Assembly: GCA_003576945.1 (NCBI GenBank)
Contig: QEVC01000007.1
Span: 1 to 38,480, forward strand
Reading direction: 5' to 3'
Length of the DNA: 38,480 nt
From: Candidatus Microgenomates bacterium
Lineage (GTDB): Bacteria; Patescibacteriota; Microgenomatia; UBA1400; UBA12108
The notes under the pieces were generated by a model. It was not told where the DNA came from. It did not search any database and saw only the letters and a program-made list of their open reading frames with translations. Shown piece by piece: positions 7,889 through 23,384 of this stretch. The number at the start of each line of letters is the position of its first letter. Position 1 is the first letter of the stretch. The position numbers and the translations under genes were made by a program.

Positions 7889-7900
7889 ATAGTTGTACCC

Positions 7901-7906
7901 ATTATA
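7901..7906 (-). promoter_or_regulatory. -10 hexamer TATAAT, 12 nt before ftsA
   Basis: Consensus TATAAT on the minus strand, 12 nt before the ATG, spanning the end of the 20-bp ftsQ-ftsA gap. It would give a leader of only about 5 nt. Confidence 0.5.
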
Positions 7907-7908
7907 GC

Positions 7909-8673: not shown

Positions 8674-9691
8674 CACCACTTAGGGTATATTTCTCTGGTC
8701 TAAGCTGTTTTAACTCCTTGATCGCAACACGAAGATTTTTCAAACTTAAATCAGACTGGCTAAGCACAACTGCTTGCTTTACTTTGACTAACTCTAAGGC
8801 GTTTTTGTATTGCTCTCTTTGGTGAGTAAATGACAAAGGAACAAGTACCGCTTTGAGCCCTAATAATAGTAACTCGTAAGTGATGTGGGCACCAGAGCGA
8901 CCAAGATAATAATTGGCACTTTTTAGATAATATCCGATTTCGTTTTCGGTAATATAACCGATAGGCAGATAAGAATCGGCAAGCGAGCCGAGACTACCTC
9001 TTAGTGCAAGTGCCTGTTCATAATCGCCTGTTTCACTACTGGTTCCGGTTTGATGAATAAGATTAAAATCGATAAGGAGATCGCGCAAATGTTCGAAAAT
9101 AAAGTGATTGATTGCGTGGGCGCCTTGTTTGCCACCCATGACAAGTAAGGTTGGACGCTTGCGATCAAATAGTTTTTTTGGAGTAGCTCTGATTATGCTA
9201 CTGCGCAAGGGTAAGCCTACGACTAGAGATTTTTTCTTAGGAAAGAACTTAAGAGAACTATGCCAAGTTAGGTAAACTCGCCGCGCGAGCTTACTTATAA
9301 ACTTATTGGCTTTGCCAGCAACCACAGTTTGTTCATGTAAATAGACCGAGATACCTAGGATATATGCGGCCAGTGCGGTAGTGGCACCGAGGTAGCCGCC
9401 AAAGGAGATAACCGCGGATGGCTGGTGTGCGATCAAATACTTGAGGGCGACGATAAAACCATATGGCAATCGCAGTAGTTCAGAAATATTTAGGGTGGCA
9501 CGACCTGCGGGCAGATCTAGGAATTTGATTTTACTGGCAGTAACTTCCACATATTCGGCAGAGTCGTTTTGGTCTTTGCGACTACTTTTTTTGTGACCAT
9601 ACCAGTAAACGGTATGTTTTTGACTGACAAAATACTGAGCAAGAACAAGCGCACTATTGTGATGACCACCAGTAAAGACAAATGTACCCAT
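8630..9691 (-). CDS. murG: MurG-type UDP-GlcNAc:lipid I GlcNAc-transferase
   Basis: GT28 glycosyltransferase of 353 aa that adds GlcNAc to lipid I on the inner membrane face, forming lipid II. The N-terminal motif is FTGGHHNSAL (about residues 5-14), a reduced form of the usual GGTGGHxxPAL glycine loop. The acceptor domain has the second loop SFGGYLGATTALAA and then LHEQTVVAGKANK. The donor domain shows LVMGGKQGAHAIN and the UDP-binding stretch YYLGRSGAHITYELLLLGLKAVLVPLSFTHQREQYKNA (shown in parts: GRSGAHITYELL, then HQREQYKNA). Position between ftsW and ftsQ is typical for murG. TATCAT lies 6 nt before the ATG. Confidence 0.9.
   Translation of the reverse strand: MGTFVFTGGHHNSALVLAQYFVSQKHTVYWYGHKKSSRKDQNDSAEYVEVTASKIKFLDLPAGRATLNISELLRLPYGFIVALKYLIAHQPSAVISFGGYLGATTALAAYILGISVYLHEQTVVAGKANKFISKLARRVYLTWHSSLKFFPKKKSLVVGLPLRSSIIRATPKKLFDRKRPTLLVMGGKQGAHAINHFIFEHLRDLLIDFNLIHQTGTSSETGDYEQALALRGSLGSLADSYLPIGYITENEIGYYLKSANYYLGRSGAHITYELLLLGLKAVLVPLSFTHQREQYKNALELVKVKQAVVLSQSDLSLKNLRVAIKELKQLRPEKYTLSGDATEKVYNDIKRTL
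8684..8689 (-). promoter_or_regulatory. -10-like TATACC, 10 nt before ftsQ
   Basis: TATACC on the minus strand inside the 3' end of murG, 10 nt before ATG 8673 (4 nt before the first upstream GTG). One base from TATACT. Confidence 0.4.
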
Positions 9692-9697
9692 GTACTA

Positions 9698-9703
9698 ATG
9701 ATA
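9698..9703 (-). promoter_or_regulatory. -10 hexamer TATCAT, 6 nt before murG
   Basis: TATCAT on the minus strand in the 46-bp ftsW-murG gap, 6 nt before the ATG; TATATC overlaps it 2 nt further upstream. Either would give a leaderless transcript. Confidence 0.45.
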
Positions 9704-9737
9704 TACCAATTAATGACGAGCCTACTGTGACTAACTG

Positions 9738-10826
9738 TTAAACTTTTTCGACCCTGGCAACAGCGATAACTAGGCCGAGCCCCATGAGAATCGTCATGAG
9801 GGCGCTTCCGCCGTATGAAACAAGCGGCAAGGGAACGCCGGTTAGGGGGGTGAGCGCCACCATCGCAGCCAGATTGAGGACGACTTGGAGACTGATCCAG
9901 CAACCAACACCGGCGGCCAGGGCGGCATTAAAGGGATAGCGACACGCGGCTGCGACTTTAAAAATAAGACTAATGAGGTAGATAAAGACGAGCATGACGA
10001 TACTAATACCGACAAAGCCTAGCTCCTCACCTGCAACGGCGATAATACTATCGGTTGTGCTCTCGGGCAAATATTCATATTTTTGACGTGAGCGGCCGAT
10101 CCCAACGCCAGTGACCCCACCTGAGCCAAGGGCCAAAATGACTTGGCGGATGTGGTACGAACTACCAAGGGGGTCGTGGGTCGGATCAAGAAAAGTTTTG
10201 ACCCGATCAATGCGATAACTACTACTACCAATGAAAATGACAATGGCAATCATCGCAAGTGCCACGATGGTGGCGAGCTGTTTGACAGGATAACCGGTAA
10301 TAAAGTAGAGCGATATGGCGAGACCACTCACAACGAGAGTGGTGCCGAGATCGGGCTGGAGCATGATGAGTCCTGCGATAACGCCAACATAGGCCATAAA
10401 CTGGGTGAGGGTAACTTTTTTTGAAGTCATCCAGGCTGATAAGTAAATGACTTGCACTAACTTGATTAGCTCAGAGGGTTGAAGAACAATCCCTGGTAGG
10501 ACGAGCCAGCGACGTGCACCCAAGACCTTGGTGCCGATGCCAGGGATAATCACCAAAAAAAGCAGAAGAACCCCTACCCCGAGGATCGGAACAGCGAGTT
10601 TTTGCCAGATACCTGGGTGAACCCGCGAAATGATCAAAGATAACACAGCTCCGGCTCCTGCCCACTTAAGCTGAAGGAGCACAAAATGCCACTTATTACC
10701 AAAATCGCGTGCACCTTCGGCGACACTGGCGCTACCAATCATAACCAAGCCGAAAACGAGAAGAACTAACGTAGTTAAGACAATTTGGGAAGTAAGTGAA
10801 ATGCCAGCGAGATTAACCTTCTTCAT
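9738..10826 (-). CDS. ftsW: Septal SEDS peptidoglycan glycosyltransferase FtsW
   Basis: Polytopic membrane protein of 362 aa with about ten hydrophobic segments, of the SEDS family. It polymerises lipid II at the septum with FtsI. Family signatures: VFGLVMIGSASVAE in the first helix, LGARRWLVLPGIVLQPSEL, MLQPDLGTTLVV, DPTHDPLGSSYHIRQ, and LPESTTDSIIAVAGEELGFVG with the conserved catalytic-site Asp. It ends with LTGVPLPLVSYGGSALM. Compared with the RodA at 1080-2156 it keeps the longer LGARRWL/PSEL segment typical of FtsW and sits between murD and murG, as is usual. TATCAT lies 6 nt before its ATG; it is 28 bp downstream of murD. Confidence 0.93.
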   Translation of the reverse strand: MKKVNLAGISLTSQIVLTTLVLLVFGLVMIGSASVAEGARDFGNKWHFVLLQLKWAGAGAVLSLIISRVHPGIWQKLAVPILGVGVLLLFLVIIPGIGTKVLGARRWLVLPGIVLQPSELIKLVQVIYLSAWMTSKKVTLTQFMAYVGVIAGLIMLQPDLGTTLVVSGLAISLYFITGYPVKQLATIVALAMIAIVIFIGSSSYRIDRVKTFLDPTHDPLGSSYHIRQVILALGSGGVTGVGIGRSRQKYEYLPESTTDSIIAVAGEELGFVGISIVMLVFIYLISLIFKVAAACRYPFNAALAAGVGCWISLQVVLNLAAMVALTPLTGVPLPLVSYGGSALMTILMGLGLVIAVARVEKV

Positions 10827-10832
10827 TGATCC

Positions 10833-10838
10833 ATGATA
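10833..10838 (-). promoter_or_regulatory. -10 hexamer TATCAT, 6 nt before ftsW
   Basis: TATCAT on the minus strand in the 28-bp murD-ftsW gap, 6 nt before the ATG. Confidence 0.45.
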
Positions 10839-10854
10839 CTACGTCACCGAGGAT

Positions 10855-12180
10855 TTATGACTTAAGAGAAAGTACGGCTTTGTTAAACTGCGCTCCACGA
10901 TCAAATTCGTTTTTAAATAAATCAAAGGAGGCAAACCCAGGAGAGAGGAGAATAGTGTCACCGACACTACTAACAGACTGGGCAAGCGAGACTGCCTCAG
11001 ACATGGACTTGGCCTGTCCCGCTATCTTGTCTGGACAACCACGCCTGAGGGCATCGGTAAAATCGACCAAGTTTAAGCTACCGAGAAAGATAATCTTTTT
11101 CACATGATCATTATTTATGATCTCTTTTATCAAATCAGTTTGAGGAAGTTTTTTACTCTCACCCCCACAGATCAAGATTATGTTCCCTTTGATTGCAGAG
11201 AGGGCAGTCAGCGCAGCAACGGGTGTGGTAGCGGTCGTATCATTGACAAAGGTAACACCGCGTAAGGTGCGGATCTGCTCTAAGCGATAAGCGACACCCG
11301 TGAAAGTAGCAACTGCTTGCCTTATGACGTCGTCTTCTATCCCCAGCTTGGTGCAGAGAGTGATTGCCGCACTCAAATTACTCTGATTGTGCGCTCCCAA
11401 GAGCTTGGTCTGGTAACTACTAGCTAACTTGCTCTCGTAGGGATATTTGGTGACTGGGGAGACGCTGGCTATTTTTACACTCCCCTCATTTTCGGTGTTG
11501 TAGACGGTAAAGCCAGGAGGTTTTTGGTAGCGGACAAGCGCCTCTTTATCATAGCGGTAGCGATGCATATCAGGATAACGGTTTAAATGATCCGGATGCA
11601 AGTTGGTGACAACTGAATAGTTGGGTGAGACCTGTTGAGCGTGAAATGAGTGTAGCTGGAAAGATGATAGCTCGAGAACTGCATATAGCTTGCCCTCGCA
11701 CTCAGCAAACATGGATAGGGCAGAGTTTCCTGGGATGTTGCCACCGAGCAAGACTTTGCCAGGATAAGCAGCTTCCATAATTTTATAAATCAAGGTAGTG
11801 GTAGTAGTTTTACCACGAGTGCCTGTGATACCTATGGTCTTAAGTGGGGAGTATTTGACGAATAAAGAAATGGAGGTATAGACTTCGGCTCCTTTTGATT
11901 TAGCTCTTTGTATGAGTGGGTGATCGTCGGGAACCGCGGGGTTTTTGATAATCAAGTCACACCAATCAATGTCAGATTTGAGGTGACCCCCGAGTGAGAG
12001 CTCTAGTCCTGGAGCGTATGCCGATTTATCATGTCCGAGCTCATCTTTGCTTAGGATATCGGTGGCTCGCACCTGATAACCATTTGAGGCTAGATAATTA
12101 GCATCACCTAATCCACCGCCCTGACGACCTATCCCAAAAACTAAGATTTTTTTACCTGTTAGATATTCTTGAATTGTCAT
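10855..12180 (-). CDS. murD: UDP-MurNAc-L-alanine:D-glutamate ligase MurD
   Basis: Cytoplasmic Mur ligase of 441 aa that adds D-Glu to UDP-MurNAc-L-Ala with ATP. The N-terminal uridine-binding domain begins ILVFGIGRQGGGLGDANYL. The ATP P-loop is GITGTRGKTTTTTLIY (about residues 116-131), followed by VLELSSFQL and NLHPDHLNRYPD. The NDTTATTPVAALTAL block occupies the position of the E. coli DSKATN motif but lacks its Lys. The C-terminal domain has ILICGGESKKLPQTDL and LLSPGFASFDLFKNEFDRG, a clear MurD signature. Its ATG overlaps the TGA of murI (ATGA), so the two are translationally coupled; this pairs the D-Glu maker with its user. Confidence 0.95.
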   Translation of the reverse strand: MTIQEYLTGKKILVFGIGRQGGGLGDANYLASNGYQVRATDILSKDELGHDKSAYAPGLELSLGGHLKSDIDWCDLIIKNPAVPDDHPLIQRAKSKGAEVYTSISLFVKYSPLKTIGITGTRGKTTTTTLIYKIMEAAYPGKVLLGGNIPGNSALSMFAECEGKLYAVLELSSFQLHSFHAQQVSPNYSVVTNLHPDHLNRYPDMHRYRYDKEALVRYQKPPGFTVYNTENEGSVKIASVSPVTKYPYESKLASSYQTKLLGAHNQSNLSAAITLCTKLGIEDDVIRQAVATFTGVAYRLEQIRTLRGVTFVNDTTATTPVAALTALSAIKGNIILICGGESKKLPQTDLIKEIINNDHVKKIIFLGSLNLVDFTDALRRGCPDKIAGQAKSMSEAVSLAQSVSSVGDTILLSPGFASFDLFKNEFDRGAQFNKAVLSLKS

Positions 12181-12902
12181 AACAGCCCATATTTGTTAGC
12201 TGACTGTTGTAATCTTAACACGTCACCAGTGCTGTGATATTTTATTTGTGATTTGGGAGATAAAGCATTTTTTAGTTTTAGATTTAGCGTTTTGGCAACG
12301 TGCGCTCTGACAGCATTTGATGGATCGTAGATTTCTACCCCAGTAAATATCTCTTCGATCATACTTTTGACAAGCGGATAATGGGTACAAGAGAGGCCGA
12401 TGGCATCTATCTCTCCTAACTCGGATTTGGCAGTTTCGAGAATGCTTTTTACATTTTGTATGTTGTCATCTTCGATTGCTTTGGCAAGGCCAACTGGTGT
12501 GTAGTAACGGATGTGATCGCCATGTACTTTTTTAAGATTTTGTGCAACGACTGAGTTGGTCGTTACTGTGGTACCCCAAACCACAGGGTTAGTATACTCT
12601 TTCAACATTTTAGTTATTGGCTCTACGCCAAAGACGGGAATGCTTAGCCTTGATCGAAGATCTGAGAGTGCGGTTACTGTACCAGTGTTACAAGCCACGA
12701 CGAGACCAGAAGCATGAATCTTAGCGAAAATATCAGCTAGTTCGACAAAACGATTTTTAAGAAATCCTTCAGATTTGTCGCCATAAGGAAAGTAAGCTTG
12801 ATCGGCAAAATATACTAACGGTGTGTCATACTTGATGAGTTCTTTAAGAATCGAGAAGCCGCCAATACCTGAGTCAAAGATAATTAGTGGGTAATCTAAC
12901 AT
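12177..12902 (-). CDS. murI: Glutamate racemase MurI
   Basis: Cofactor-independent racemase of 241 aa that makes D-glutamate for MurD. The substrate-binding start IIFDSGIGGFS is near residue 6. YFADQAYFPYGDKSE follows. The two catalytic cysteines are in VACNTGTVTAL (about residue 71) and GLSCTHYPL (about 178). The open frame runs upstream to 12959, but ATG 12902 is chosen because family members begin just before DSGIGG and this ATG lies 2 nt after the mraY stop; the longer form would overlap mraY by 55 nt. It ends in an ATGA overlap with murD. murI is not usually part of the dcw cluster, so its placement next to murD is notable. Confidence 0.95.
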   Translation of the reverse strand: MLDYPLIIFDSGIGGFSILKELIKYDTPLVYFADQAYFPYGDKSEGFLKNRFVELADIFAKIHASGLVVACNTGTVTALSDLRSRLSIPVFGVEPITKMLKEYTNPVVWGTTVTTNSVVAQNLKKVHGDHIRYYTPVGLAKAIEDDNIQNVKSILETAKSELGEIDAIGLSCTHYPLVKSMIEEIFTGVEIYDPSNAVRAHVAKTLNLKLKNALSPKSQIKYHSTGDVLRLQQSANKYGLL

Positions 12903-12904
12903 AA

Positions 12905-13933
12905 CTAAATAAAAGCTAACCAAAGACCAAAAAGGGCAAGAATAATGCCTGCTAGCCAACTACGAGCCACAATCTTGGGCTCTTCCCAGCCGATTAGCTG
13001 GAGCCACAAATGGAATGGCGAAATGGGTAAGAGCCGACGACCCAGGTAACGTTTACCAAACATTTGGATACTGGAGGTGGCAATCTCTAAGATAAAAACA
13101 CCGCTTATGATGACAACGGCGACGACTTTGCCTAATAAAAGCGCAATAACAGCGAGGGTGGCGCCAAAGGAGAGGGCGCCAACATCACCCAAATGAATAC
13201 GAGCAGGATAAGTATTAAAGTATAAGAAAGCTAAGAGTCCTCCTAGCCAAAGGGCTAGAAAAAGGGCGATGGGAGTATCGAGAATCGAGGCAGCGATAAG
13301 AGTGAGCGCAAAGAGAGTGATCATGAGCAAACCAGGGGCAAGGCCATCCAAGCCATCGGTAATGTTTACGGCGTTACTGAATGCTACGATGAAAAAAGAG
13401 GCAAAGGGAACAAAGAACCAGCCCAAATTCCAGACTCCTAGATAGGGAATATTGATAATACTAATCCCCATGACGCTGTAGAGATAGTAGCTGATCCCGA
13501 GAGATAACATGATCTGAATAACCAGCTTAACGCGCATGCTAATGCCAACTACACCAGATTGTTTGCCAAAAAATTTCATGACATCGTCATAGAGACCAAG
13601 AAGTCCAAAGAGGATAAAAGTAGCAAAAATTACATTTACTTCCATGCGCATAGGGTAGACGCTACCGATCGGGGCGCCAACCAACTTGAGCATACCTGCA
13701 ACCAAAATATAGAGGAGACAGGTTGTCACAATGATGAGGAGCCCCCCACCAACCGGGATTCCTGCTTTCTTTTTGTGAAGTTTGTTGTAAATGTTATTGA
13801 CTACGCCCATAAAGTCAGAGGTCTTTTGGCTAGGTCTTTGGAATTTGAAGGTATAGAGAATATTAATGAATGGAACAATTAGGGCTGCGTTGATGGTAAA
13901 ACTGAAGAGGAGAAAACCGAGTAATGTATTCAT
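12905..13933 (-). CDS. mraY: Phospho-MurNAc-pentapeptide transferase MraY
   Basis: Polytopic membrane enzyme of 342 aa that transfers phospho-MurNAc-pentapeptide to undecaprenyl phosphate, giving lipid I. Seen: KKAGIPVGGGLLI near residue 55 (family KxGTPTMGG region), the Asp pair in LGLYDDVMKFFGK (about 115), the NAVNITDGLDGLAPG loop (about 190), LGDVGALSFGATLA (about 247), and a PISPFHLWLQLIGWEEPKIV block near residue 310 that corresponds to the HHH-type motif in a reduced form. About ten hydrophobic segments. It lies 2 nt downstream of dgkA and 2 nt upstream of murI, so the three are tightly packed. Confidence 0.93.
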   Translation of the reverse strand: MNTLLGFLLFSFTINAALIVPFINILYTFKFQRPSQKTSDFMGVVNNIYNKLHKKKAGIPVGGGLLIIVTTCLLYILVAGMLKLVGAPIGSVYPMRMEVNVIFATFILFGLLGLYDDVMKFFGKQSGVVGISMRVKLVIQIMLSLGISYYLYSVMGISIINIPYLGVWNLGWFFVPFASFFIVAFSNAVNITDGLDGLAPGLLMITLFALTLIAASILDTPIALFLALWLGGLLAFLYFNTYPARIHLGDVGALSFGATLAVIALLLGKVVAVVIISGVFILEIATSSIQMFGKRYLGRRLLPISPFHLWLQLIGWEEPKIVARSWLAGIILALFGLWLAFI

Positions 13934-13935
13934 AA

Positions 13936-14295
13936 TTAGTTAAATAGAGATAATAATTTAGGGATAAAGATTACTGCCCCGATTATAATTGCCAGGATCG
14001 AGACTACTAAAACTGATCCCGCTGCTACATCTTTGGCTTTTTTGATCTCTGGATGAATCTCAGTTGTGATAGCGTTGCAGACAAACTCAATAGCCGTATT
14101 AATCATCTCAGCAACTAACACTAAACCAACTAAAAGTATTATTTCAACTAATTCTTCTGTGCTAAGGCCCAAAAAATATCCTAAAAGACTAACGACAATC
14201 GCAATAATAAGATGAGTACGGACGTTTGGTTGAGTGACAAAGGCAGTCTTTAATCCCATAATGGCATAAGAAAAAGAAGTGATCTTCTGTTGCAT
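13936..14295 (-). CDS. dgkA: Diacylglycerol/undecaprenol kinase family protein (DgkA)
   Basis: Small integral membrane kinase of 119 aa with three hydrophobic segments. The family motif is AEMINTAIEFVCNAIT (about residues 64-79), followed by KKAKDVAAGSV. In Gram-positive bacteria this family phosphorylates undecaprenol, recycling the lipid carrier used by MraY, which is encoded just downstream; that role fits here better than diacylglycerol recycling. The open frame extends to 14403 inside murA. ATG 14295 is chosen because TATACT lies 6 nt before it in the 19-bp gap after murA and because the family starts with a short amphipathic helix (SFSYAIMGLKTAF). Confidence 0.9.
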   Translation of the reverse strand: MQQKITSFSYAIMGLKTAFVTQPNVRTHLIIAIVVSLLGYFLGLSTEELVEIILLVGLVLVAEMINTAIEFVCNAITTEIHPEIKKAKDVAAGSVLVVSILAIIIGAVIFIPKLLSLFN

Positions 14296-14301
14296 AGGCC
14301 T

Positions 14302-14307
14302 AGTATA
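14302..14307 (-). promoter_or_regulatory. -10 hexamer TATACT, 6 nt before dgkA
   Basis: TATACT on the minus strand in the 19-bp murA-dgkA gap. It decides the dgkA start at 14295 against a longer frame that would overlap murA. Confidence 0.55.
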
Positions 14308-14314
14308 CAGCAAC

Positions 14315-15637
14315 TCAGGCAGAACTTTTGCGAGTAATGTTGGCTGAAAGCTGACTAAGGCGCTCATCAAATTTTTCGTAGCCGCGATCGATGAGTTCAA
14401 CATTTTTTATAATGCTATCCCCCTCTGCCATAATAGCAGCCATAACTAGCGTTGCCCCACCACGTAAATCAGGGACGGTCATGGTGTGTCCACGAAAAGT
14501 GGTTGGCCCATAGATTCTAGCAGCATGTGGATAACTAACTTTTTCGGGATAATTAAACTCATAGAAATCAGTGGGATTATCTGGAGTTGGGTCGTAGTAT
14601 TCGATTTTGGCGCCCATTTCTCTTAATTGGTCGGTAAAGGCAAGACGGTGCTGGGTCACTGCTTCGACTACATGAGAGACGCCTTTGGCCTGAGTCATCA
14701 TGGTAGTCCAGAGTGGTTGCCAGTCTGTCATGAAGCCTGGTTCTGGCGCGGTTGTAATATCGGTCGCGACGAGTGGTTTCTCATACCAGAAACGCATCCC
14801 ATAATCTGAAGATTCATATTTACCACCAATTTCATCGAGCTTCTGTAAAAAAGCTTGAATATGGTTGAGATTGGCGCCTTCGAGGATGATGTCTCCCTTG
14901 GTGGCAATGGCCATGCAGGCGTATGACACAGCCTCGTTGCGATCGGACATTACATAATGAGTGGCACCACGGAGTTTTTTGACACCCACTATCTTAATAG
15001 AGTCACCTTCCCTTGTAACATTCGCCCCCATTTTGTTAAAGAAAGTAATTAGGTCGTCTACTTCTGGTTCGAGCGCGGCATTTTCGATGATGGTAGTACC
15101 ATTTGCTAAAACAGCGGCAATAATGAGGGCTTCGGTACCCGTGTGTGATTTCTTTGGGAAGCGGTAGGTGGCGCCACGCAAACCCTGAGAGGCTGACATC
15201 TCGATACCAACTTCGGTTAAGTCAACTTTTGCGCCCATCGCGCGAAAGCCATCGAGGTGGCGCTCAATTGGACGATCACCTAGAGCGCAGCCTCCGGGGA
15301 GAGGAATAATGGCCTGACCTTTTTTGTTGAGCAAGAGCCCGGCAAAAAGTGTCGCAGCGCGAGTCTTTTCCCCAGTAAATTGGGGAATAATGTGAGTATT
15401 TAAACCGTCGCCGGTAATGTAGACAGTATTGTCTCCGGGACGACTCACCTTTACTCCGATTGCCTCGAGTGTTTTGTAAGTTACCTCAACATCCCCAATC
15501 TTACTCATGTTAAGTAGGCGGGATTCGCCGGTTCCACAAGCGGCCGCGATCATTAGTTTGAAACTGGCATTTTTGGCGCCACCCAGGCGAACTGCGCCCT
15601 TGAGAGGGGTGCCGCCGGTAATGTGAAAATCAGTCAT
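14315..15637 (-). CDS. murA: UDP-GlcNAc 1-carboxyvinyltransferase MurA
   Basis: Cytoplasmic enzyme of 440 aa that transfers enolpyruvate from PEP to UDP-GlcNAc, the first committed step of peptidoglycan synthesis. The N-terminal [17 protein letters not shown] holds the Lys and Asn that bind substrate. The PEP loop is [17 protein letters not shown], with the catalytic Cys at about residue 116 (the residue alkylated by fosfomycin). Later [28 protein letters not shown] and the C-terminal [19 protein letters not shown] fit the EPSP synthase-like fold. TACAAT lies 9 nt before the ATG, and the gap to murB upstream is 25 bp. Confidence 0.96.
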
Positions 15638-15646
15638 AACGCGTCA

Positions 15647-15652
15647 ATTGTA
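15647..15652 (-). promoter_or_regulatory. -10 hexamer TACAAT, 9 nt before murA
   Basis: TACAAT on the minus strand in the 25-bp murB-murA gap, 9 nt before the ATG. Confidence 0.45.
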
Positions 15653-15662
15653 GCTGAGAAAC

Positions 15663-16595
15663 TCAATTTGTGCCAATCTTTATTACTTCTTCTGCCAGGC
15701 TAACACCAAATTTATCTTTAATTTTTTGTTTTACTGTATCAACTAGTGCCAGAACATCACTGCTCGTCGCAGTCCCGTCGTTAATAATAAAGTTGGCGTG
15801 TACGTCGCTGACTACTGCCCCCCCGACCCTAAGGCCTTTTAGACCTGCCTTGTCGATTAAGTATCCGGCTGAGGCGGTCGGGACCCCGAGACGCATACGA
15901 TCTGCAAGACTGATATTTTTGAACATACAGCCAGAACTAGGAAGGCCTAGTGGTTGAGTAGAGCTGCGACGCTTCACGGCCTCAGTTGCAATGCTCCAGA
16001 GAGCAGTCTTATCCCCCCGCGAGAGTTGAAAACTAGCTGAGAGAATTACTTCTTTAGTTTTGTGGAAGATGCTGTAATCGTAGGCAAATTGACACTCCGC
16101 ATTCGTGTATTTTTTTATCTTGCCAGCATGATCTAAGATTTCGACTTCGATAATGTGGTCACCAAAAAGCTTATCTAAATGATGACTGTTGTTGTAAACT
16201 GCTCCTCCCACTGTCCCAGGAAGCCCTAGCATATCTTCTAGACCAGCGAGTCCTTCATCAAGGGTATATCTAATTAGGTAGTTGGCAGTGACGCCACTAT
16301 CTGCTTCGACAATCGCTTCTTTGAGGTCCAGCCTCCCCTTTTCGACTCCCCCAGCAAAACCCTTTAATTTAACTGAACTAGTTCTGTTCTTGATCACGAG
16401 ACCACGAAAGCCAGTATCGCTCACGAGCACATTACTACCTCCACCAAGAACGAAGTAGGGGAGCTTGGACTCTATCGCGTAGCGGACTGCCTCGATTAGA
16501 TCGTCTTTAGTTTTGGCTTCAACAAATTGGTCGGCAATGCCGCCGAGCTTGAAATAGGTGTGTTTAGCGAGTGGGACCTTAGTTTGAATGTTCAT
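15663..16595 (-). CDS. murB: UDP-N-acetylenolpyruvoylglucosamine reductase MurB
   Basis: FAD enzyme of 310 aa that reduces the MurA product with NADPH to UDP-MurNAc. The FAD-binding domain shows YFVLGGGSNVLVSDTGFRGLVI (in parts: LGGGSNVLVSD near residue 50) and GLEDMLGLPGTVGGAVYNN (about 118-136). The C-terminal domain has LPSSGCMFKN (about 218-227) and the closing SLAEEVIKIG with the conserved Glu. In well-studied enzymes the position held here by Cys (about 222) is the catalytic Ser that protonates the intermediate. The lack of the extra Tyr loop of the E. coli enzyme suggests the type II form. It starts in an ATGA overlap with murC. Confidence 0.95.
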   Translation of the reverse strand: MNIQTKVPLAKHTYFKLGGIADQFVEAKTKDDLIEAVRYAIESKLPYFVLGGGSNVLVSDTGFRGLVIKNRTSSVKLKGFAGGVEKGRLDLKEAIVEADSGVTANYLIRYTLDEGLAGLEDMLGLPGTVGGAVYNNSHHLDKLFGDHIIEVEILDHAGKIKKYTNAECQFAYDYSIFHKTKEVILSASFQLSRGDKTALWSIATEAVKRRSSTQPLGLPSSGCMFKNISLADRMRLGVPTASAGYLIDKAGLKGLRVGGAVVSDVHANFIINDGTATSSDVLALVDTVKQKIKDKFGVSLAEEVIKIGTN

Positions 16596-17860
16596 AGATG
16601 TTTTTTAAAATCTTCGTGCAGTTTATAAACAAAACCAGCGCCCATTGTGAGGATGATATCACCTGGTCTACTTGCATTCCAGACTACCTCCGCGGCATTA
16701 TCCCAGGTTAAGGCAGTAGCGCCGGGAATCAGGGCTGCAAAAGAAGCTGGTGTGATTTGATGAGGCTTGCCAATTTCCCTGGCAGACTCAAAAATTGGCA
16801 TGATGAAGGTTAAATCCGCAACACTTAAGGCTTTGGCGAAATCGGATAAAAGACTCTCGGTGCGGGTATAGGTGTGTGACTCAAAAACTAAGATAACGCG
16901 GCGGTCTGGAAAATGTGTTTTGAAAGAGGTGGTGGTGACCTCGATCTCACCTGGATGATGACCGTAATCGTCATAGAGCAAGCGCCCTGCCACCTCACCG
17001 TGATACTCTTGCCTACGTCCCGCGCCACGATAGGCTTGGATTGCCTTCTCAGCTATTTCAAGCGGTATCCCTGCGGCTTGCGCAGCTAATACGGCGGCTT
17101 GAGCATCTAACTGATTCTGATCACCAAAGACAGAAAGTTCGAATGGTTTAAGGTTTGAGTTATATGGTGAAAGATGACATACAGGATTACTGTTCTTTAA
17201 TATTTGCATAGTGAGTGGGTCGGTATCGTTGTAGACCCATGTGCCTGACGCCGGAATACCTTTGATTAAGTCACTAAATACTCGAAGGGTGTCACCAACT
17301 GTTGGATAGATATCGGGGTGATCGTGCACGATATTGGTAGTAATTACAATCTCGGGGGTGAGGAGGGCAAACTTAGGTCTTGGATCAGTCTTGCTAACGG
17401 CATATTCATCGGCTTCGATGACATAATAGGGATCACTCCCGGCATGTCCGGGAGAGTCTAATCCAGCAATGGTGCTAGTACCAACATAATAGCCGACGTC
17501 GCGTCCGATACTATGGAAAAGGGCAGCGAGCATGGCGCTGGTCGTGGTCTTACCGCCAACTCCGGCGACGGCAATCACACGACGACTCCCAACAAAATCT
17601 GCCAGTGCCTGGGCAAGGGTCTTGGTGGGAATATTGGTCGTCGGGACTGGATAGGCCGCAGAGTGGATAATTAGGTCACATTGTGGCAGAGGGACAGAAA
17701 ATAGTGAGACTTTGATGTTGTGTTTTTTTAGGATAGCGTCGGTGATAAAAACCTCATCTGTGTCACTCCCTGAGACTACCCACCCGGCATCAGCCATCGC
17801 TAGAGCGAGAGAGGTCATGCCGACCCCCTTGATGCCGATAAAAAACACACTTTTAGGCAT
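16592..17860 (-). CDS. murC: Mur ligase in the murC position (UDP-MurNAc:L-alanine ligase, with Mpl-like features)
   Basis: Cytoplasmic ATP-dependent Mur ligase of 422 aa. N-terminal VFFIGIKGVGMTSLALAMA and VSGSDTDE match the MurC/Mpl uridine-binding domain. The ATP loop is VAGVGGKTTTSAML (about residues 95-108), where MurC and Mpl usually have GTHGKTTT. The middle block YYVIEADEYAVSKTDPRPKF and HDHPDIYPT resembles Mpl (EADEYDTAFFDKRSKF, DHADIF) more than MurC (EADESDxSF). The C-terminal domain has YDDYGHHPGEIEVT and VFESHTYTRT. Position beside murB and the lack of another candidate favour a MurC role. The frame is open to 17971, but ATG 17860 is chosen from the MurC N-terminus; it overlaps the upstream gene by 8 nt. 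Confidence 0.85.
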   Translation of the reverse strand: MPKSVFFIGIKGVGMTSLALAMADAGWVVSGSDTDEVFITDAILKKHNIKVSLFSVPLPQCDLIIHSAAYPVPTTNIPTKTLAQALADFVGSRRVIAVAGVGGKTTTSAMLAALFHSIGRDVGYYVGTSTIAGLDSPGHAGSDPYYVIEADEYAVSKTDPRPKFALLTPEIVITTNIVHDHPDIYPTVGDTLRVFSDLIKGIPASGTWVYNDTDPLTMQILKNSNPVCHLSPYNSNLKPFELSVFGDQNQLDAQAAVLAAQAAGIPLEIAEKAIQAYRGAGRRQEYHGEVAGRLLYDDYGHHPGEIEVTTTSFKTHFPDRRVILVFESHTYTRTESLLSDFAKALSVADLTFIMPIFESAREIGKPHQITPASFAALIPGATALTWDNAAEVVWNASRPGDIILTMGAGFVYKLHEDFKKHL

Positions 17861-18596
17861 TACTTGCTTTCTTTTGGGCACGAGAGTAGTCGCTCCGATT
17901 ATTAACCCCATGCCAAATTGAACTATCTTGGCGGAAATAAGCGCAGACTTTTTTGTTGCTTCTGAGAGCAATCTCGACCATGTCGGTTGCGTAGTACTCG
18001 CCAGTCAAGACATTTTTTTGAATATCGCCAATGTGTTTTTCCAGAAAATCACGCCTGAAACAGTAGAATCCTGTATTAATTTCTTGAATTTTCTTTTCGT
18101 TGTCGGTTGCATTTTTTTCTTCGACTATGCGCTCAACCTCGCCTAACTCATTGCGGACAATTCGCCCTAGACCAGTGGGATCATCTTTGTGGATGGTCAA
18201 GAACAATAAATCACAGTTTTTGATTTTTAGTTCTTCTACCATTTTATGGTAAAGTGATACGGGATAAAAGGCAGAGTCGTCTCCATAAACAGTTAAAACC
18301 GTCTCGATCGATGAGTCTAGGAATGGAATCGCAGACTTTAAGGCATCTCCAGTCCCAAGGGGTTCTTTTTGGGTGGCGTAGATCACTTTATTACCCAAAG
18401 CAACTTTGACACTATCTGCTGCAAAACCAACGACAGTGATGATTTGGGCAACCCCAGCTTCGATAAGATGATCGACAGTATGTGCGACCATTGGCTTGCC
18501 ATGGAGATTAAAGGCAACCTTGTTCTTGGTTTTTGCCTTCATGCGGGTGCCACGCCCGGCAGCAAGAACAATGGCGGCGGTGTGTGTTAAGTTCAT
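17853..18596 (-). CDS. glmU: GlmU-type UDP-GlcNAc pyrophosphorylase domain (stand-alone nucleotidyltransferase)
   Basis: Nucleotidyltransferase of 247 aa that should make UDP-GlcNAc from GlcNAc-1-phosphate and UTP. The signature IVLAAGRGTRMKAKTKNKV is at residues 9-27, followed by KPMVAHTVDHLI, TQKEPLGTGDALKSAI, and VYGDDSAFYP in place of the usual GDxPL metal motif. ITGFYCF-like INTGFYCFRRDFLE and the last part HGVNNRSDYSRAQKK match the end of the GlmU N-domain. The whole left-handed helix acetyltransferase half is missing, so this is a monofunctional version; the acetylation step must come from elsewhere. It sits between murE and murC. Its leader is formed entirely by a 7-bp tandem array (18605-18670). 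A related sugar nucleotidyltransferase is the alternative call. Confidence 0.8.
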   Translation of the reverse strand: MNLTHTAAIVLAAGRGTRMKAKTKNKVAFNLHGKPMVAHTVDHLIEAGVAQIITVVGFAADSVKVALGNKVIYATQKEPLGTGDALKSAIPFLDSSIETVLTVYGDDSAFYPVSLYHKMVEELKIKNCDLLFLTIHKDDPTGLGRIVRNELGEVERIVEEKNATDNEKKIQEINTGFYCFRRDFLEKHIGDIQKNVLTGEYYATDMVEIALRSNKKVCAYFRQDSSIWHGVNNRSDYSRAQKKASNA

Positions 18597-18604
18597 AAAG
18601 TTGT

Positions 18605-18670
18605 AAGTATCTAGTATCTAGTATCTAGTATCTAGTATCTAGTATCTAGTATCTAGTATTTAGTATTTAG
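18605..18670. repeat. 7-bp tandem array, about 9 copies of TAGTATC/TAGTATT
   Basis: Plus-strand units: AAGTATC (18605-18611), six perfect TAGTATC (18612-18653), two TAGTATT (18654-18667), then a partial TAG. It fills the 70-bp gap between the glmU start (18596) and the murE stop (18667-18669), which the last unit overlaps. Read in the direction of transcription the unit is GATACTA, and each copy contains GATACT, one base from TATACT. The copy nearest glmU puts GATACT 9 nt before the ATG, the place where other genes here have a -10 box. Copies degrade only at the two edges. Confidence 0.95.
18606..18611 (-). promoter_or_regulatory. -10-like GATACT, 9 nt before glmU, within the tandem array
   Basis: GATACT on the minus strand at the edge of the heptamer array, 9 nt before ATG 18596. 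The further copies upstream repeat the same hexamer every 7 bp. Confidence 0.35.
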
Positions 18671-19956
18671 TTATTATTTAGTGCGTTTTGCATGGCTTCT
18701 TGGTCTGACCAAGGGGTTTCGGTCCAGCCATCGAGATTCATCGAACCTTCATGTCCCTTGCCACAGGATACCACCCAATCTCCAGATCGTGCAAATTCAT
18801 TAATTGCCCGACTGATCGCAAGTTTTCGATCTAATTCGATAACAACCTTCCGTTTGGTTGAACTTGGCATGCCGGCCATAATATCACTCGCTATTTGCTT
18901 GGGATCTTCGGAACGTGGGTCTTCGCTAGTTATGATTATTTGGTCAGCGAACTCGGCCGCATATTTCCCCATTAAGGGTCTTTTACTGCTATCTCGCAAA
19001 CCAGCAGAACCAAAGACTACAATTAATTTTTCATTCTTGCCTAATTTATTATTTAGATTTCTAAGAACTTCCCGCAAAGCGTTCGGAGTATGGGCAAAGT
19101 CGACGTAGGCATGAATACCCCTAGTGTTTTTAATTTCTTGTAATCTCCCTTTAACTCCGGGGAAAGAAAGAAGGGTGCGCTTGATGTCGACCGGGTTAAT
19201 CTCTAAAAGAAGAGCAGTACTAATTGCGGCGAGCGCATTACTCACATTGTACCTACCAGTCATCGGGAGCTTATAGACAATGCGACCAAGTCTAAAGTTA
19301 ATTGAATCCTTAGATTCAACTAAGTCTTGCGCCTTTAACTGAGAGTCGGTCTCTAGTGAATAGGTAGAAAAGAGAGTCTTGGGAAGAGAGGCGTTAATGA
19401 TAGGAAAATCTGGCTGGTCTTTATTAATAACCGCGTGATCTGCACCCTTAAACAATCTTAGCTTGGCAGCACGATACTTTTCGTACGTCCCATGATAATC
19501 GAGATGTTCGTGAGTAATATTGGTGAGTACAGCAATTTTTGGCTTAATAGGAAAGAAGCGAAACTGATCAAGGCCATGACTCGTAACCTCGAGGACAACA
19601 TAACGAATTTTTTGAGATCTGATACGTCTCAGTAGTCTTTGGAGTAAAAAGGGATCGGGGGTCGTGACATGAAACCCAGTATCGAAACTCTTCTTGCCAA
19701 TTTTGGCTTCTACTGTACTGATCATGGCTACTTTGCGCTTTGCCATTTTGAGGATGTGATAAATCATGCTGATAGTTGTGGTTTTGCCATCGGTACCAGT
19801 GACGGCAATGATCTCTAACCCTTCACTGGGATTGCCATACATCCGCGAAGCGATAAAGGCGAGCGGCAGATGATAGAAGTAGTTGACAAGAGACTGCGGA
19901 AACAGGGGCCTGAGTTTACGAAGCAGAGTTATTAAGTAACGCCTATATTTCAGCAT
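18667..19956 (-). CDS. murE: UDP-MurNAc-tripeptide synthetase MurE
   Basis: Cytoplasmic Mur ligase of 429 aa that adds the third amino acid to UDP-MurNAc-L-Ala-D-Glu. The ATP P-loop AVTGTDGKTTTISMIYHI is at residues 51-68, followed by TTPDPFLLQRLLRR, VLEVTSHGLDQFR and LTNITHEHLDYHGTYE. The C-terminal domain has HAYVDFAHTPNALREVLR, VVFGSAGLRDSSKRPLMG and EDPRSEDPKQIASDI (about 345-359). EDPR matches the DNPR motif of meso-diaminopimelate enzymes, so mDAP is the likely substrate. Only about 50 residues precede the P-loop, against about 110 in E. coli MurE, so most of the usual N-terminal uridine-binding domain is missing. No murF follows. TAAAAT lies 12 nt and AAAGGA 4 nt before the ATG. Confidence 0.92.
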   Translation of the reverse strand: MLKYRRYLITLLRKLRPLFPQSLVNYFYHLPLAFIASRMYGNPSEGLEIIAVTGTDGKTTTISMIYHILKMAKRKVAMISTVEAKIGKKSFDTGFHVTTPDPFLLQRLLRRIRSQKIRYVVLEVTSHGLDQFRFFPIKPKIAVLTNITHEHLDYHGTYEKYRAAKLRLFKGADHAVINKDQPDFPIINASLPKTLFSTYSLETDSQLKAQDLVESKDSINFRLGRIVYKLPMTGRYNVSNALAAISTALLLEINPVDIKRTLLSFPGVKGRLQEIKNTRGIHAYVDFAHTPNALREVLRNLNNKLGKNEKLIVVFGSAGLRDSSKRPLMGKYAAEFADQIIITSEDPRSEDPKQIASDIMAGMPSSTKRKVVIELDRKLAISRAINEFARSGDWVVSCGKGHEGSMNLDGWTETPWSDQEAMQNALNNN

Positions 19957-19983: not shown

Positions 19984-21726
19984 CTACTGATCTGGTGGAA
20001 TGTTGTAATGAAGGAGCAGTCGCTTGGCTATTGTAAACCATAAGGGGGCGGCGGTTTCACTACCCCATTGTGAAGACTGGGGTTCTCTAAGTTTTACCAA
20101 CATTACAAAGCGTGGGTTGTGGGCTGGAGCAAAACCAACAAAGCTCGCAATAGTTTTTTCCGCATCATAGTGGCCAGAAACAGCGATTTGGGCGGTACCT
20201 GTCTTGCCGGCCATGGTGTAACCCTTGGGCTTGGCCCATTTAGCCTCGCCATACTCAACTGCCTTAATCATAAGCTCAGTCGTCCGACGCGCAGCATCTT
20301 CGGAGATTACGGTCCGAATGGTTTTGGGTAAAATCGGCAGATCATCCTCACCTAGAACCGTATCTACCACGTGTGGTTCCATGAGCTTGCCGCCGTTGGC
20401 GATTGCACCAACTGCTCGCACCATCTGGATACTAGTAACTGCAATGCCCTGCCCAAAAGAGCTAGTCGCATAATCTACTTCGCCCCATTTTTTCCTCAGA
20501 GGCGAGGCGACTTCTTCTTGGAGATCGATGCCGGTTTTTTCGCCAAAACCAAAGTTTTTGATGTACTCAACTAGCTTGTCACCTCCAAGTTTCCGCTGCA
20601 TCCAAACCATCCCAGTATTGTCAGAGTGGACAATAATATCTTCGGGAGTTGCGTCCTTTTTGTATTCACCGTTCCAAGTTTTGATACTGTATTTGTCGAT
20701 CGCAACGGGGCCTGCGCAAATGTCACATTGGTCAGTCTCGGTGATAACCCCCTCATTGAGAGCGGCGGCCGCGACCAGGACTTTAAAAGTACTACCTGGT
20801 TCGTAGGTATTAGCAATGCTTGGGTTCTTGTAGAGCGAACTATCATAGAGGTAGAAACGTGAGGGATCGTAGGTAGGAAGAGCGGCCATGGCCAAGATAC
20901 CTCCAGTCTTGGGATCCATAACAACAACCTCGCCGCTAGCTGCACCATAGCGCTCCAGAGCTTTGGCGAGCTCAGAAACAACGGCATGTTGCACGCCACG
21001 ATCTAAGTGGAGTTTGAGCGAGCGACCAAGTCGGCCAGGTAGTAGCTCCCAGGTCCCCGTAAGGAGCGGGTTGCCGAGGGCATCTTTTTCTTGAGCCTCA
21101 ATGCGAGAACGACTTGTTAGTTCACGGTTATAGTATCCTTCTAGTCCGAAGTAGCCGAGCGGGTTACCTCCATCATCCCGACCAACAAAACCTGTAACAT
21201 GCGCCGAGAGACTGGCTTCGGGATAATCCCGAGTAAAATCTTGATCAAAAGTCAGGCCGGTTAGCCCGGTTTCGTGAATTTTTGATTTGACGGTTTCGCT
21301 GATATTTTGGGCGAGCGTGACGTAGCCATTACTCTTGGCGAGTCTGGCACTCATGGTAGCACTTGCGGCATTTTTTAGCTCGGTTAAATAGAGCGGGGCG
21401 CGGAGTGAGTCGGTGGCAATAATTGGATCGGTAATCTCATATTCGAGCAGATTACTAATTGTTTCGGGGAGAGCTCTAACTTCGCCAGTAAATCCTGGCA
21501 AATAGACGCCGAGGTTGTAGACAGGTCGGTTGATAACCAGGGCCGCATTATCGGCGGTTATGATTTCACCACGTTTGGTGATTTCGATGTTTCGATCGCT
21601 ATACTGCTGCCTCGCCTCGGCGCGCAGCTCGGCACCTCGAATGAGCTGCCAGTAAGCCAGGCGAAGAGTCACAGCTGCGAGCAAGAAAATAACTATGAGA
21701 AAAAATGCCTGAATCCTTGGTCGCAT
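19984..21726 (-). CDS. ftsI: Division transpeptidase FtsI (class B penicillin-binding protein)
   Basis: Membrane-anchored peptidoglycan transpeptidase of 580 aa that crosslinks septal glycan made by FtsW. One N-terminal transmembrane helix (about residues 5-25, FFLIVIFLLAAVTLRLAYW) is followed by the PBP dimerisation domain (about 30-230). The transpeptidase domain has all three active-site motifs: YEPGSTFKVL with the nucleophile Ser (about 308), HSDNTGMVW for SxN (about 366), and MAGKTGTAQIA for KTG (about 506). No PASTA domains follow. The frame is open to 21807 and overlaps the ftsL-like gene; ATG 21726 is chosen because TATACT lies 9 nt before it and the anchor begins right after. Confidence 0.95.
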   Translation of the reverse strand: MRPRIQAFFLIVIFLLAAVTLRLAYWQLIRGAELRAEARQQYSDRNIEITKRGEIITADNAALVINRPVYNLGVYLPGFTGEVRALPETISNLLEYEITDPIIATDSLRAPLYLTELKNAASATMSARLAKSNGYVTLAQNISETVKSKIHETGLTGLTFDQDFTRDYPEASLSAHVTGFVGRDDGGNPLGYFGLEGYYNRELTSRSRIEAQEKDALGNPLLTGTWELLPGRLGRSLKLHLDRGVQHAVVSELAKALERYGAASGEVVVMDPKTGGILAMAALPTYDPSRFYLYDSSLYKNPSIANTYEPGSTFKVLVAAAALNEGVITETDQCDICAGPVAIDKYSIKTWNGEYKKDATPEDIIVHSDNTGMVWMQRKLGGDKLVEYIKNFGFGEKTGIDLQEEVASPLRKKWGEVDYATSSFGQGIAVTSIQMVRAVGAIANGGKLMEPHVVDTVLGEDDLPILPKTIRTVISEDAARRTTELMIKAVEYGEAKWAKPKGYTMAGKTGTAQIAVSGHYDAEKTIASFVGFAPAHNPRFVMLVKLREPQSSQWGSETAAPLWFTIAKRLLLHYNIPPDQ

Positions 21727-21735
21727 ACTAAGTGT

Positions 21736-21741
21736 AGTATA
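21736..21741 (-). promoter_or_regulatory. -10 hexamer TATACT, 9 nt before ftsI
   Basis: TATACT on the minus strand in the 25-bp gap after the ftsL-like gene, 9 nt before ATG 21726. It decides the ftsI start. Confidence 0.55.
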
Positions 21742-21751
21742 AAGTTGCATG

Positions 21752-22018
21752 TTAGCGCAAGGCAACAGAACTGCTCGAGAGACTAACGATCTGGGGACTC
21801 TCAACAAACCCCATAGCCTCTACTTTGCCTTGGATATTGGTGAGTGAGCCAAGGGCGGCGATTTGTTGCTTGAGGACGATGTTTTGATTACTTAGGTTTG
21901 TAATCTCAGCATTGATTGATTTAACTTCGACTGACTCATCGACTGCAGCGTTGGCCACAACCACATTAGCAACAACGAGGAAAAAGATGATGAGGGAGAA
22001 GAGTTTGACCAATTTCAT
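21752..22018 (-). CDS. ftsL: FtsL-like small bitopic division protein
   Basis: Protein of 88 aa recognised mainly by architecture and place between rsmH and ftsI, where ftsL is found in many bacteria. Residues 1-23 form a hydrophobic helix (LFSLIIFFLVVANVVVANA) after MKLVK. Residues 30-60 look like a coiled coil (VEVKSINAEITNLSNQN, then IVLKQQIAAL). The end VEAMGFVESPQIVSL resembles the FtsL/DivIC C-terminal pattern (A-x-x-x-G-[FM]). The helix ends in ANAAV, which could also be read as a cleavable signal peptide; FtsL should keep its anchor, so this is a point of doubt. Its ATG overlaps the rsmH stop (ATGA). Sequence alone would not prove FtsL. Confidence 0.7.
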   Translation of the reverse strand: MKLVKLFSLIIFFLVVANVVVANAAVDESVEVKSINAEITNLSNQNIVLKQQIAALGSLTNIQGKVEAMGFVESPQIVSLSSSSVALR

Positions 22019-22887
22019 GCTTTCCTCCCATACCTGAGTTTGGCACTACGTGACCTACGATTGTCATATTGTTCGTCGAGTGAGGGAGTGATAATGTCAC
22101 TCACCTCTAAAATATCTTTGAGACTTGCAAAGAAGTTTTTGACAATCTCATCCTCTAAGCTGTGGAAGGAGATAACGACGAGTACACCACCTGAGGTGAG
22201 TTTGCTCCAGGCCGAGGGCAGTGCGGCCTTGAGCTCCTCACGCTCAGTGTTGACAGCCATACGGAGGGCTTGGAAAACTTTGGTGGCAGGATGCAAGTGA
22301 GATTTGCTACGGGTAACATTACGTGCTACCAGACTAGCTAATTCGGCAGTTGATTCGATAGGCTTAGTTTTGCGGGCGTCAAGGATCGCTGCCACTATTT
22401 TTTTGGCGGCGTATTCTTCGCCGAGTGTGGAGAAGAGCTCTATTAGCTCATTCTTACCTAAACCATTAATGAGATCTTTTGCGGTAACGGCCAGGTCTTT
22501 GTTCATGCGCATATCGAGAGGCGCGTCGTGTCTAAAGGAGAAACCACGTTCTGGAGTATCGAGCTGATAAGAACTGACACCGAGATCCATTAACACACCA
22601 CTGTATTTAGATGGCTCTAGACGATCTCCATCAAGTGCGCTCGCAAAAGAACTATGGAGACTCGTAAAGTTAGCACTTAATCCTGAGCCAGTAATTCTTT
22701 TTTGGGCGAGCTCCAAGATATCGGCATCCTGATCTATGCCGACAACTGAGGCCCCAGCTTTGAGGAGCTCGAGCGTGTGCCCGCCATAACCAAGAGTGGC
22801 GTCAATATACATTTTGCCTGGCTCAGGAGCCATGATCTTAACTACCTCAGAGAGTAGAACGGGAGTGTGGAGCAGTTTATTTTCCAT
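22015..22887 (-). CDS. rsmH: 16S rRNA (cytosine-1402-N4)-methyltransferase RsmH
   Basis: SAM-dependent methyltransferase of 290 aa (also called MraW) that methylates C1402 in the 16S rRNA decoding centre. The start LHTPVLLSEVVKIM is typical. The SAM motif DATLGYGGHTLELL is at about residues 29-42, then VVGIDQDADIL, and VLMDLGVSSYQLDTPERGFSFR with the family-specific DLGVSS (about 96-117). It ends with VISFHSLEDEIVKNFF and a basic NRRSRSAKLRYGRKA tail. It lies 2 nt after mraZ and overlaps ftsL by ATGA, so mraZ-rsmH-ftsL form one translationally linked block. Confidence 0.97.
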   Translation of the reverse strand: MENKLLHTPVLLSEVVKIMAPEPGKMYIDATLGYGGHTLELLKAGASVVGIDQDADILELAQKRITGSGLSANFTSLHSSFASALDGDRLEPSKYSGVLMDLGVSSYQLDTPERGFSFRHDAPLDMRMNKDLAVTAKDLINGLGKNELIELFSTLGEEYAAKKIVAAILDARKTKPIESTAELASLVARNVTRSKSHLHPATKVFQALRMAVNTEREELKAALPSAWSKLTSGGVLVVISFHSLEDEIVKNFFASLKDILEVSDIITPSLDEQYDNRRSRSAKLRYGRKA

Positions 22888-22889
22888 AT

Positions 22890-23321
22890 TTAGATCCCAA
22901 GCTCAGCTAAGGTATTTTCGAGTTCCCCTGTTTGCGAATTGAGACCATCAATGTATGCGTGATAGCGGGCTTTGTCCCAGATCTCAACACGAGTTAGCGC
23001 TCCGGCAAAAACGACTTCTTTGGTGATTCCGACCAATGCTTTGAGATTGTCTGGCAATAGCATGCGACCATATGTGTCTAGTTCGAGAGGAGTCGCATTG
23101 AATGTAAGTAAACGGAGAAAATCGCGAGCGGCCTTGTTGGTTAGTGGTAATGACTGGAGCTTATCGGTTAACTTACTCCAACTATCTGCTGTAAAGATAA
23201 ATAAACAACCGTCTAAGCCGTAGGTTGTAACGGATCCAGATTCTAGTTGACTACGAAAGGCTTTTGGGACGGCAACACGCTTCTTTTCATCGAGAGTATG
23301 ATAATATGTGCCTATAAACAT
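22890..23321 (-). CDS. mraZ: Transcriptional regulator MraZ
   Basis: AbrB-like DNA-binding protein of 143 aa that forms rings and controls the dcw operon it heads. Both half-motifs are present: TLDEKKRVAVPKAFR (about residues 10-24; the first usually reads DxKGR, here DEKKR) and ELDTYGRMLLPDNLKALV (about 81-98). LFIFTADSWSKL lies between. Two TGGGA boxes 10 bp apart lie just before its start, so self-regulation is probable. ATG 23321 lies about 28 nt after the predicted transcription start. First gene of the dcw cluster. Confidence 0.97.
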   Translation of the reverse strand: MFIGTYYHTLDEKKRVAVPKAFRSQLESGSVTTYGLDGCLFIFTADSWSKLTDKLQSLPLTNKAARDFLRLLTFNATPLELDTYGRMLLPDNLKALVGITKEVVFAGALTRVEIWDKARYHAYIDGLNSQTGELENTLAELGI

Positions 23322-23332
23322 ATAAGACTATC

Positions 23333-23350
23333 TCCCACTTTGTCCCACTT
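23333..23350 (-). promoter_or_regulatory. MraZ operator: two TGGGA boxes 10 bp apart
   Basis: On the minus strand AAGTGGGACA is followed directly by AAGTGGGAGA, so two TGGGA boxes (23343-23347 and 23333-23337) repeat with a 10-bp period, one helical turn. E. coli MraZ binds TGGGN repeats spaced by 5 nt, and the Mollicutes box is AAAGTGG-like; both are matched. The boxes lie directly over and after the predicted transcription start. Confidence 0.8.
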
Positions 23351-23355
23351 CGATT

Positions 23356-23384
23356 ATTAAAGCGTAAATTGATATGGTTGTCAA
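23356..23384 (-). promoter_or_regulatory. Sigma-70-type promoter of the dcw operon (Pmra)
   Basis: On the minus strand TTGACA (23379-23384) is followed by a 17-bp spacer and TTTAAT (23356-23361), one base from TATAAT. Start of transcription is predicted near 23349, giving a leader of about 28 nt that carries both MraZ boxes and a GGGAG sequence 10 nt before the ATG. The rest of the 188-bp gap (23385-23509) holds only weak AT-rich inverted repeats and no clear terminator for the gene upstream. Confidence 0.7.

Follow-up and report, generated by a model that had tools for sequence, protein, structure and literature searches.

A putative two-box MraZ operator in a Microgenomates bacterium, accompanied by a C(C/T)TATA element that looks peculiar to its lineage

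In a 38,480-nt stretch of contig QEVC01000007.1 (the window), mraZ is preceded by two in-phase GTGGGA boxes that very probably form an MraZ operator, a known kind of site in a new lineage. This assignment follows from the phase of the boxes, their position, the adjacency of mraZ and their deep conservation. We consider it highly likely that the site is autoregulatory. The new feature here appears to be a conserved C(C/T)TATA element beside the boxes. This is a Microgenomates genome of the Patescibacteria lineage, in agreement with an earlier note that had proposed a likely CPR genome from the letters of the window. Coordinates are collected in Table 1.

Table 1. Features at and downstream of the mraZ promoter in the window
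Feature	Position	Strand	Basis or remark
-35 hexamer TTGACA	23379..23384	-	17-nt spacer kept in relatives L003, L004 and L006
-10 hexamer TTTAAT, without A at position 2	23356..23361	-	sequence, promoter scoring
Predicted transcription start, about 6-8 nt past the -10	23348..23350	-	inferred from the -10 position alone
MraZ box 1 (putative), GTGGGA	23343..23348	-	sequence and conservation
MraZ box 2 (putative), GTGGGA	23333..23338	-	sequence and conservation
Lineage element CTTATA, the final A of which begins the mraZ ATG	23321..23326	-	sequence and conservation
mraZ ATG	23319..23321	-	
mraZ, 143 aa	22890..23321	-	Pfam MraZ, 107 bits (cut-off 23)
rsmH/mraW (Methyltransf_5), 2 nt past mraZ	22015..22887	-	Pfam
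ftsI-type transpeptidase gene	19984..21807	-	Pfam
Rest of the dcw-type cluster	6596..19956	-	Pfam; finer names inferred from gene order

The MraZ protein of the window gave two Pfam MraZ domain matches and was also matched by solved MraZ chains. Between rsmH and the ftsI-type gene lies an 88-aa open reading frame without a Pfam match. The rest of the cluster comprises Mur ligases, an NTP transferase, MurB, an EPSP-synthase type protein (MurA-like) and DAGK, then a glycosyltransferase 4 (MraY-like), an Asp/Glu racemase, FtsW, a glycosyltransferase 28 (MurG-like), an FtsQ-type POTRA protein and FtsA. The genes from mraZ through that for FtsA are all on one strand.

On the minus strand, TTGACA is followed by 17 nt, TTTAAT, 7 nt, GTGGGACAAAGTGGGA, 11 nt and the mraZ start codon, so that the earlier note had the letters of promoter and boxes right. 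The T of the first TGG is 8 nt past the -10, and the box starts are 10 nt apart, which corresponds to one helical turn. The note had also called this the clearest sigma-70-type promoter noticed in the window. It was indeed the sole match of 11 of 12 letters in the window, compared to a mean of 0.63 over 30 shuffles, of which the highest reached 3, but the letter missing from the -10 is the A at position 2, the most important one. Fittingly, a promoter scan requiring this A did not list the TTGACA/TTTAAT of mraZ. By themselves the promoter letters are weak evidence. The -35 and the spacing were kept in three relatives of the window's family, with TTTAAT, TATTCT and TATCCT as their -10s, and a fourth (L005) reads alike by eye. 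The predicted mraZ leader measures only about 28 nt. The putative operator is located within this promoter, past the -10 and over the predicted start region, with mraZ adjoining.

The exact pair GTGGGA-N4-GTGGGA occurred once in the window versus 0.0027 expected, and its expectation in the 60 nt before mraZ was under 3e-6. Four other matches of the pair in the window carried two mismatches each; as 5 of 100 shuffles also yielded at least five matches, significance is confined to the exact pair. The exact pair was likewise found once in the 825-kb genome. Chance is thus not a good explanation of the box pair. Further MraZ sites elsewhere in the genome were considered and rejected, since the five one-mismatch pairs did not exceed the reversed control, which gave 6; one of the five, with the same CAAA spacer, sits within a 213-aa open reading frame. 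A looser two-box pattern was also discarded as an indicator, being uninformative alone: it matched all 88 genomes of the order, including five without an MraZ match.

We then investigated the conservation of the boxes in 120-nt stretches upstream of mraZ. MraZ was found in 83 of the 88 order genomes; among genomes drawn from the class the figure was 311 of 373, and among those from the phylum 200 of 239, the larger groups partly including the smaller. No MraZ was shown in one of the six genomes of the window's family (G004, 88% complete). The order set held 83 upstreams: G060, with its mraZ truncated by the end of a contig, was left out, and G081 contributed two. TGG boxes 10 bp apart were present in 77 of these 83 (shuffle mean, 2.0; elsewhere in the loci, 3.5). 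They were also present in 56 of 70 class loci outside the order, a nonrandom set made of the best 30 listed and 40 picked across families (shuffle mean, 4.4; elsewhere, 2.1). In other phyla, 51 of 75 loci carried them (shuffle mean, 3.2; elsewhere, 1.7), in a set rich in related Bacteroidales that was left from 80 after removal of 5 same-order loci. For other classes of the phylum, the count was 21 among the best 30 matches (shuffle mean, 3.0). When spacings of 5 to 25 were compared, 10 and 20 alone stood out. Exact in-phase TGG pairs were missing from the 120 nt of 6 of the 83 order upstreams, including L005 with its second box AGGGGA, and from 14 of 70 class, 24 of 75 far and 9 of the best 30 other-class upstreams. 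Conservation in relatives had been set beforehand as the test on which the operator reading depended, and the TGG pairs of the 77 order upstreams bear that reading out. What is conserved upstream of mraZ are in-phase TGG boxes rather than the GTGGGA repeats the earlier note expected, as T is commoner after TGG in the order.

The usual box of the order is GTGGTRA, mostly in two copies. Among order arrays within 130 nt, the letters after the two TGGs were T and T in 53 of 78 and G and G in 5; in the far set this letter was mostly A. The GTGGGA boxes of the window are common to its genus (L003) and to another genus of the family (L004), and other family members differ (GTGGTA and AGGGGA in L005, GTGGTG and TTGGTG in L006). 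Arrays among the relatives ranged from 2 to 5 boxes: 64 of the 83 order upstreams had two and 13 had three, while outside the order three to five boxes were seen in 46 of 70 class upstreams and two in 10. A box-letter code was sought through the mutual information of MraZ residues with the letter that follows TGG, and no convincing column emerged. Within the order, the five genomes whose two boxes both read TGGG all lack the Gly of KGR (residue 14), versus 5 of 72 others (Fisher, 1.3e-5), and Lys, Asn or Arg replaces it in these five (L001, L003, L004, L067 and L083). This link was dropped as a code, given the few lineages, p = 1.0 in the rest of the class and the KGR of E. coli, which goes with TGGG boxes. 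R15 and R86, which have a role in DNA contact, belong to the columns with at least 90% conservation across 184 MraZ sequences. One genome (G081) carries two MraZ genes with different operators, one with C(C/T) at +11 from the last TGG (L053, CCTAGA) and one without (L016).

The site was compared with MraZ sites known from other bacteria. PMC8475190, from its own results and citing Eraso et al. 2014, reports that MraZ of E. coli and Mycoplasma genitalium represses the gene cluster it belongs to and binds to repeats upstream of mraZ. In Mollicutes these sites are AAAGTG[T/G] repeats (Fisunov et al. 2016), according to PMC8475190 and PMC5138195, and the former, where it treats the M. genitalium chromosome, gives one such site and states a narrow regulon. 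MraZ of Burkholderia cenocepacia shifts a 250-bp fragment with four putative repeats of 10-bp period, 7-nt units with 3-nt spacers, which in PmraBc lie downstream of the -10 and overlap the transcription start, as reported in PMC7761207. Like the window, the E. coli operator (NC_000913) has GTGGG boxes spaced by 10 bp where the dcw cluster begins, with the first TGG 8 nt past the -10, the same gap. Unlike the window, it has three boxes, not two, and no C(C/T)TATA past the last box. PmraBc resembles the predicted layout here in its 10-bp period past the -10 and over the start and differs in having four repeats; three or four boxes are typical, though not defining, of the E. coli and Burkholderia sites. 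The Mollicute repeats are AAAGTGG-like and stand by mraZ, the single M. genitalium site recalling the single exact pair here, but their letters past GTG differ. The match to E. coli and Mollicutes operators proposed in the earlier note is overstated as to box number in E. coli. Among the titles and abstracts of the literature matches listed, none dealt with an MraZ operator in CPR bacteria.

MraZ is a ring of AbrB-like DNA-binding units. Here, it would bind the two in-phase GTGGGA boxes on one helix face, where the predicted transcript begins (about +1 to +17), and would thereby block RNA polymerase at the mraZ promoter. Repression would then extend to mraZ and to the presumably cotranscribed rsmH, ftsI, mur genes, ftsW, ftsQ and ftsA. 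Repression of mraZ and its operon is the likeliest role, since the boxes cover the predicted start and MraZ represses its own cluster elsewhere. We infer that MraZ autoregulation of the dcw cluster is kept in this lineage, and the single exact site in the genome makes a narrow regulon likely. A self-regulated switch for division genes, studied in few cultivated bacteria, would thereby extend to the reduced, mostly uncultured CPR bacteria, and the analysis names the bases to test.

In a further step, the letters past the last box were compared, with positions counted from the T of the last TGG; the C of the element is at +11. In the 64 two-box order upstreams, +11 was C in 60 of the 63 with a base there, the next base was T or C in 57 of 63 and mostly TATA followed, while +7, +8 and +10 were variable. 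The C at +11 is the most conserved letter outside the TGG cores. C(C/T)T was found at +11 in 48 of 73 order arrays, and no other offset between 6 and 23 had it in more than 2. When the start codon was counted in, 64 of 73 had C at +11 and 60 of 73 had C(C/T). Elsewhere, C(C/T)T at +11 was seen in 1 of 43 class arrays outside the order and 0 of 48 of the far set, and its counts at other offsets reached 6 of 46 in the class (offset 7) and 9 and 11 of 48 in the far set (offsets 12 and 17). C(C/T) at +11 was found in 0 of 20 from other classes of the phylum, among the best 30 matches. A fixed motif past the array is therefore not unique to the order, but C(C/T)T at +11 is. The element is phased to the boxes and not to the start codon, as start codons lay anywhere from 4 to 77 nt past the last box among upstreams with a full box score. 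A strict pattern of box and element gave 46 matches in the 88 order genomes versus 12 for the reversed control; 36 of the 83 mraZ upstreams carry it, and the remaining matches are about as many as in the control. As a further control, the pattern shifted out of register by one base gave 4 matches in the 88 genomes (reversed control, 11), and none in the 83 mraZ upstreams. The window itself misses the strict pattern, with G at +5 where A is required, and reads CTTATA beginning at +11. L005 and L006, as judged by eye, also have CTTATA at +11 of their last, degenerate boxes (AGGGGA and TGAGGA).

In a tree of 133 MraZ proteins, built by a quick method and poorly resolved with some long branches, a 66-row group (SH-aLRT 95) held 60 of the 62 C(C/T) sequences and 6 without. 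C(C/T)TATA beside MraZ boxes thus appears nearly confined to one MraZ clade. We tentatively suggest, with slightly less than even confidence, that the MraZ operator was rebuilt in one Microgenomates clade, going from at least three boxes to only two, with C(C/T)TATA in the register of the third box. If so, the MraZ ring would touch the element without a GG core or bend it, and the operator would be a compact one with a different third contact. In this way, the element leads to a definite prediction of how a two-box operator would be read by an MraZ ring. Three-box operators of one family (f5) also carry the element, so box loss and element gain need not be one event.

Could the element instead act independently of the operator, as a signal in the leader RNA or as a second promoter? 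It resembles TATAAT and is situated within the predicted leader where a promoter precedes the boxes. However, its distance of 11 nt from the last TGG is kept while the start codon moves, and A is favoured at +18, where a -10 would have T. For L086 and L088, the best-scoring promoter has the boxes between its -35 and its -10; the element stays by the boxes and falls at the predicted start site of the shifted promoter, which argues against a role in leader RNA. These two are imperfect witnesses, their letters past C(C) being shifted by one. On balance, we regard an independent signal as rather unlikely.

The boxes too may be read otherwise. The GGAG of box 2 ends 10 nt before the mraZ ATG and could pair with the 16S tail as a ribosome-binding region, box 1 being a chance repeat; a 14-mer resembling the common 16S terminus, GGATCACCTCCTTT, is present in the genome. 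Against this, the 10-bp phase is conserved over the same wide range of distances to the start codon, most order relatives have GTGGTRA or TGGTAA, which are poor Shine-Dalgarno sequences, and the shifted promoter of L086 and L088 does not fit either, so that ribosome binding is very improbable as an explanation. We give equally little credence to a DNA-binding protein other than MraZ. The lack of a convincing pairing of box letter with MraZ residues would suit such a protein, but site and mraZ stay together across phyla and the boxes match sites reported to be bound by MraZ of other bacteria.

Leaders were also looked at beyond the operator. The leaderless-type starts proposed for other genes of the window are plausible: TATAAT or TATACT ends 6-12 nt before the start codons of 640-1059, 1080-2156, 6596-7888 and 25720-26232, which fits short-leader or leaderless transcripts. 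Rfam gave no match in the window or in 18 chosen loci, most of them with leader motifs. CTGCC(C/T) was present within 110 nt before mraZ in 18 of the 83 order upstreams, 12 of them in family f9 (elsewhere, average 6.7), and in 17 of the 70 class upstreams (elsewhere in the loci, average 4.9). Examples are L117, L127, L128, L145, L148 and L162, and some of these leaders form a small hairpin by eye. Finally, at least four tandem copies of the heptamer ACTAGAT were observed at 18609-18636 on the minus strand, just upstream of the NTP-transferase gene (17853-18596).
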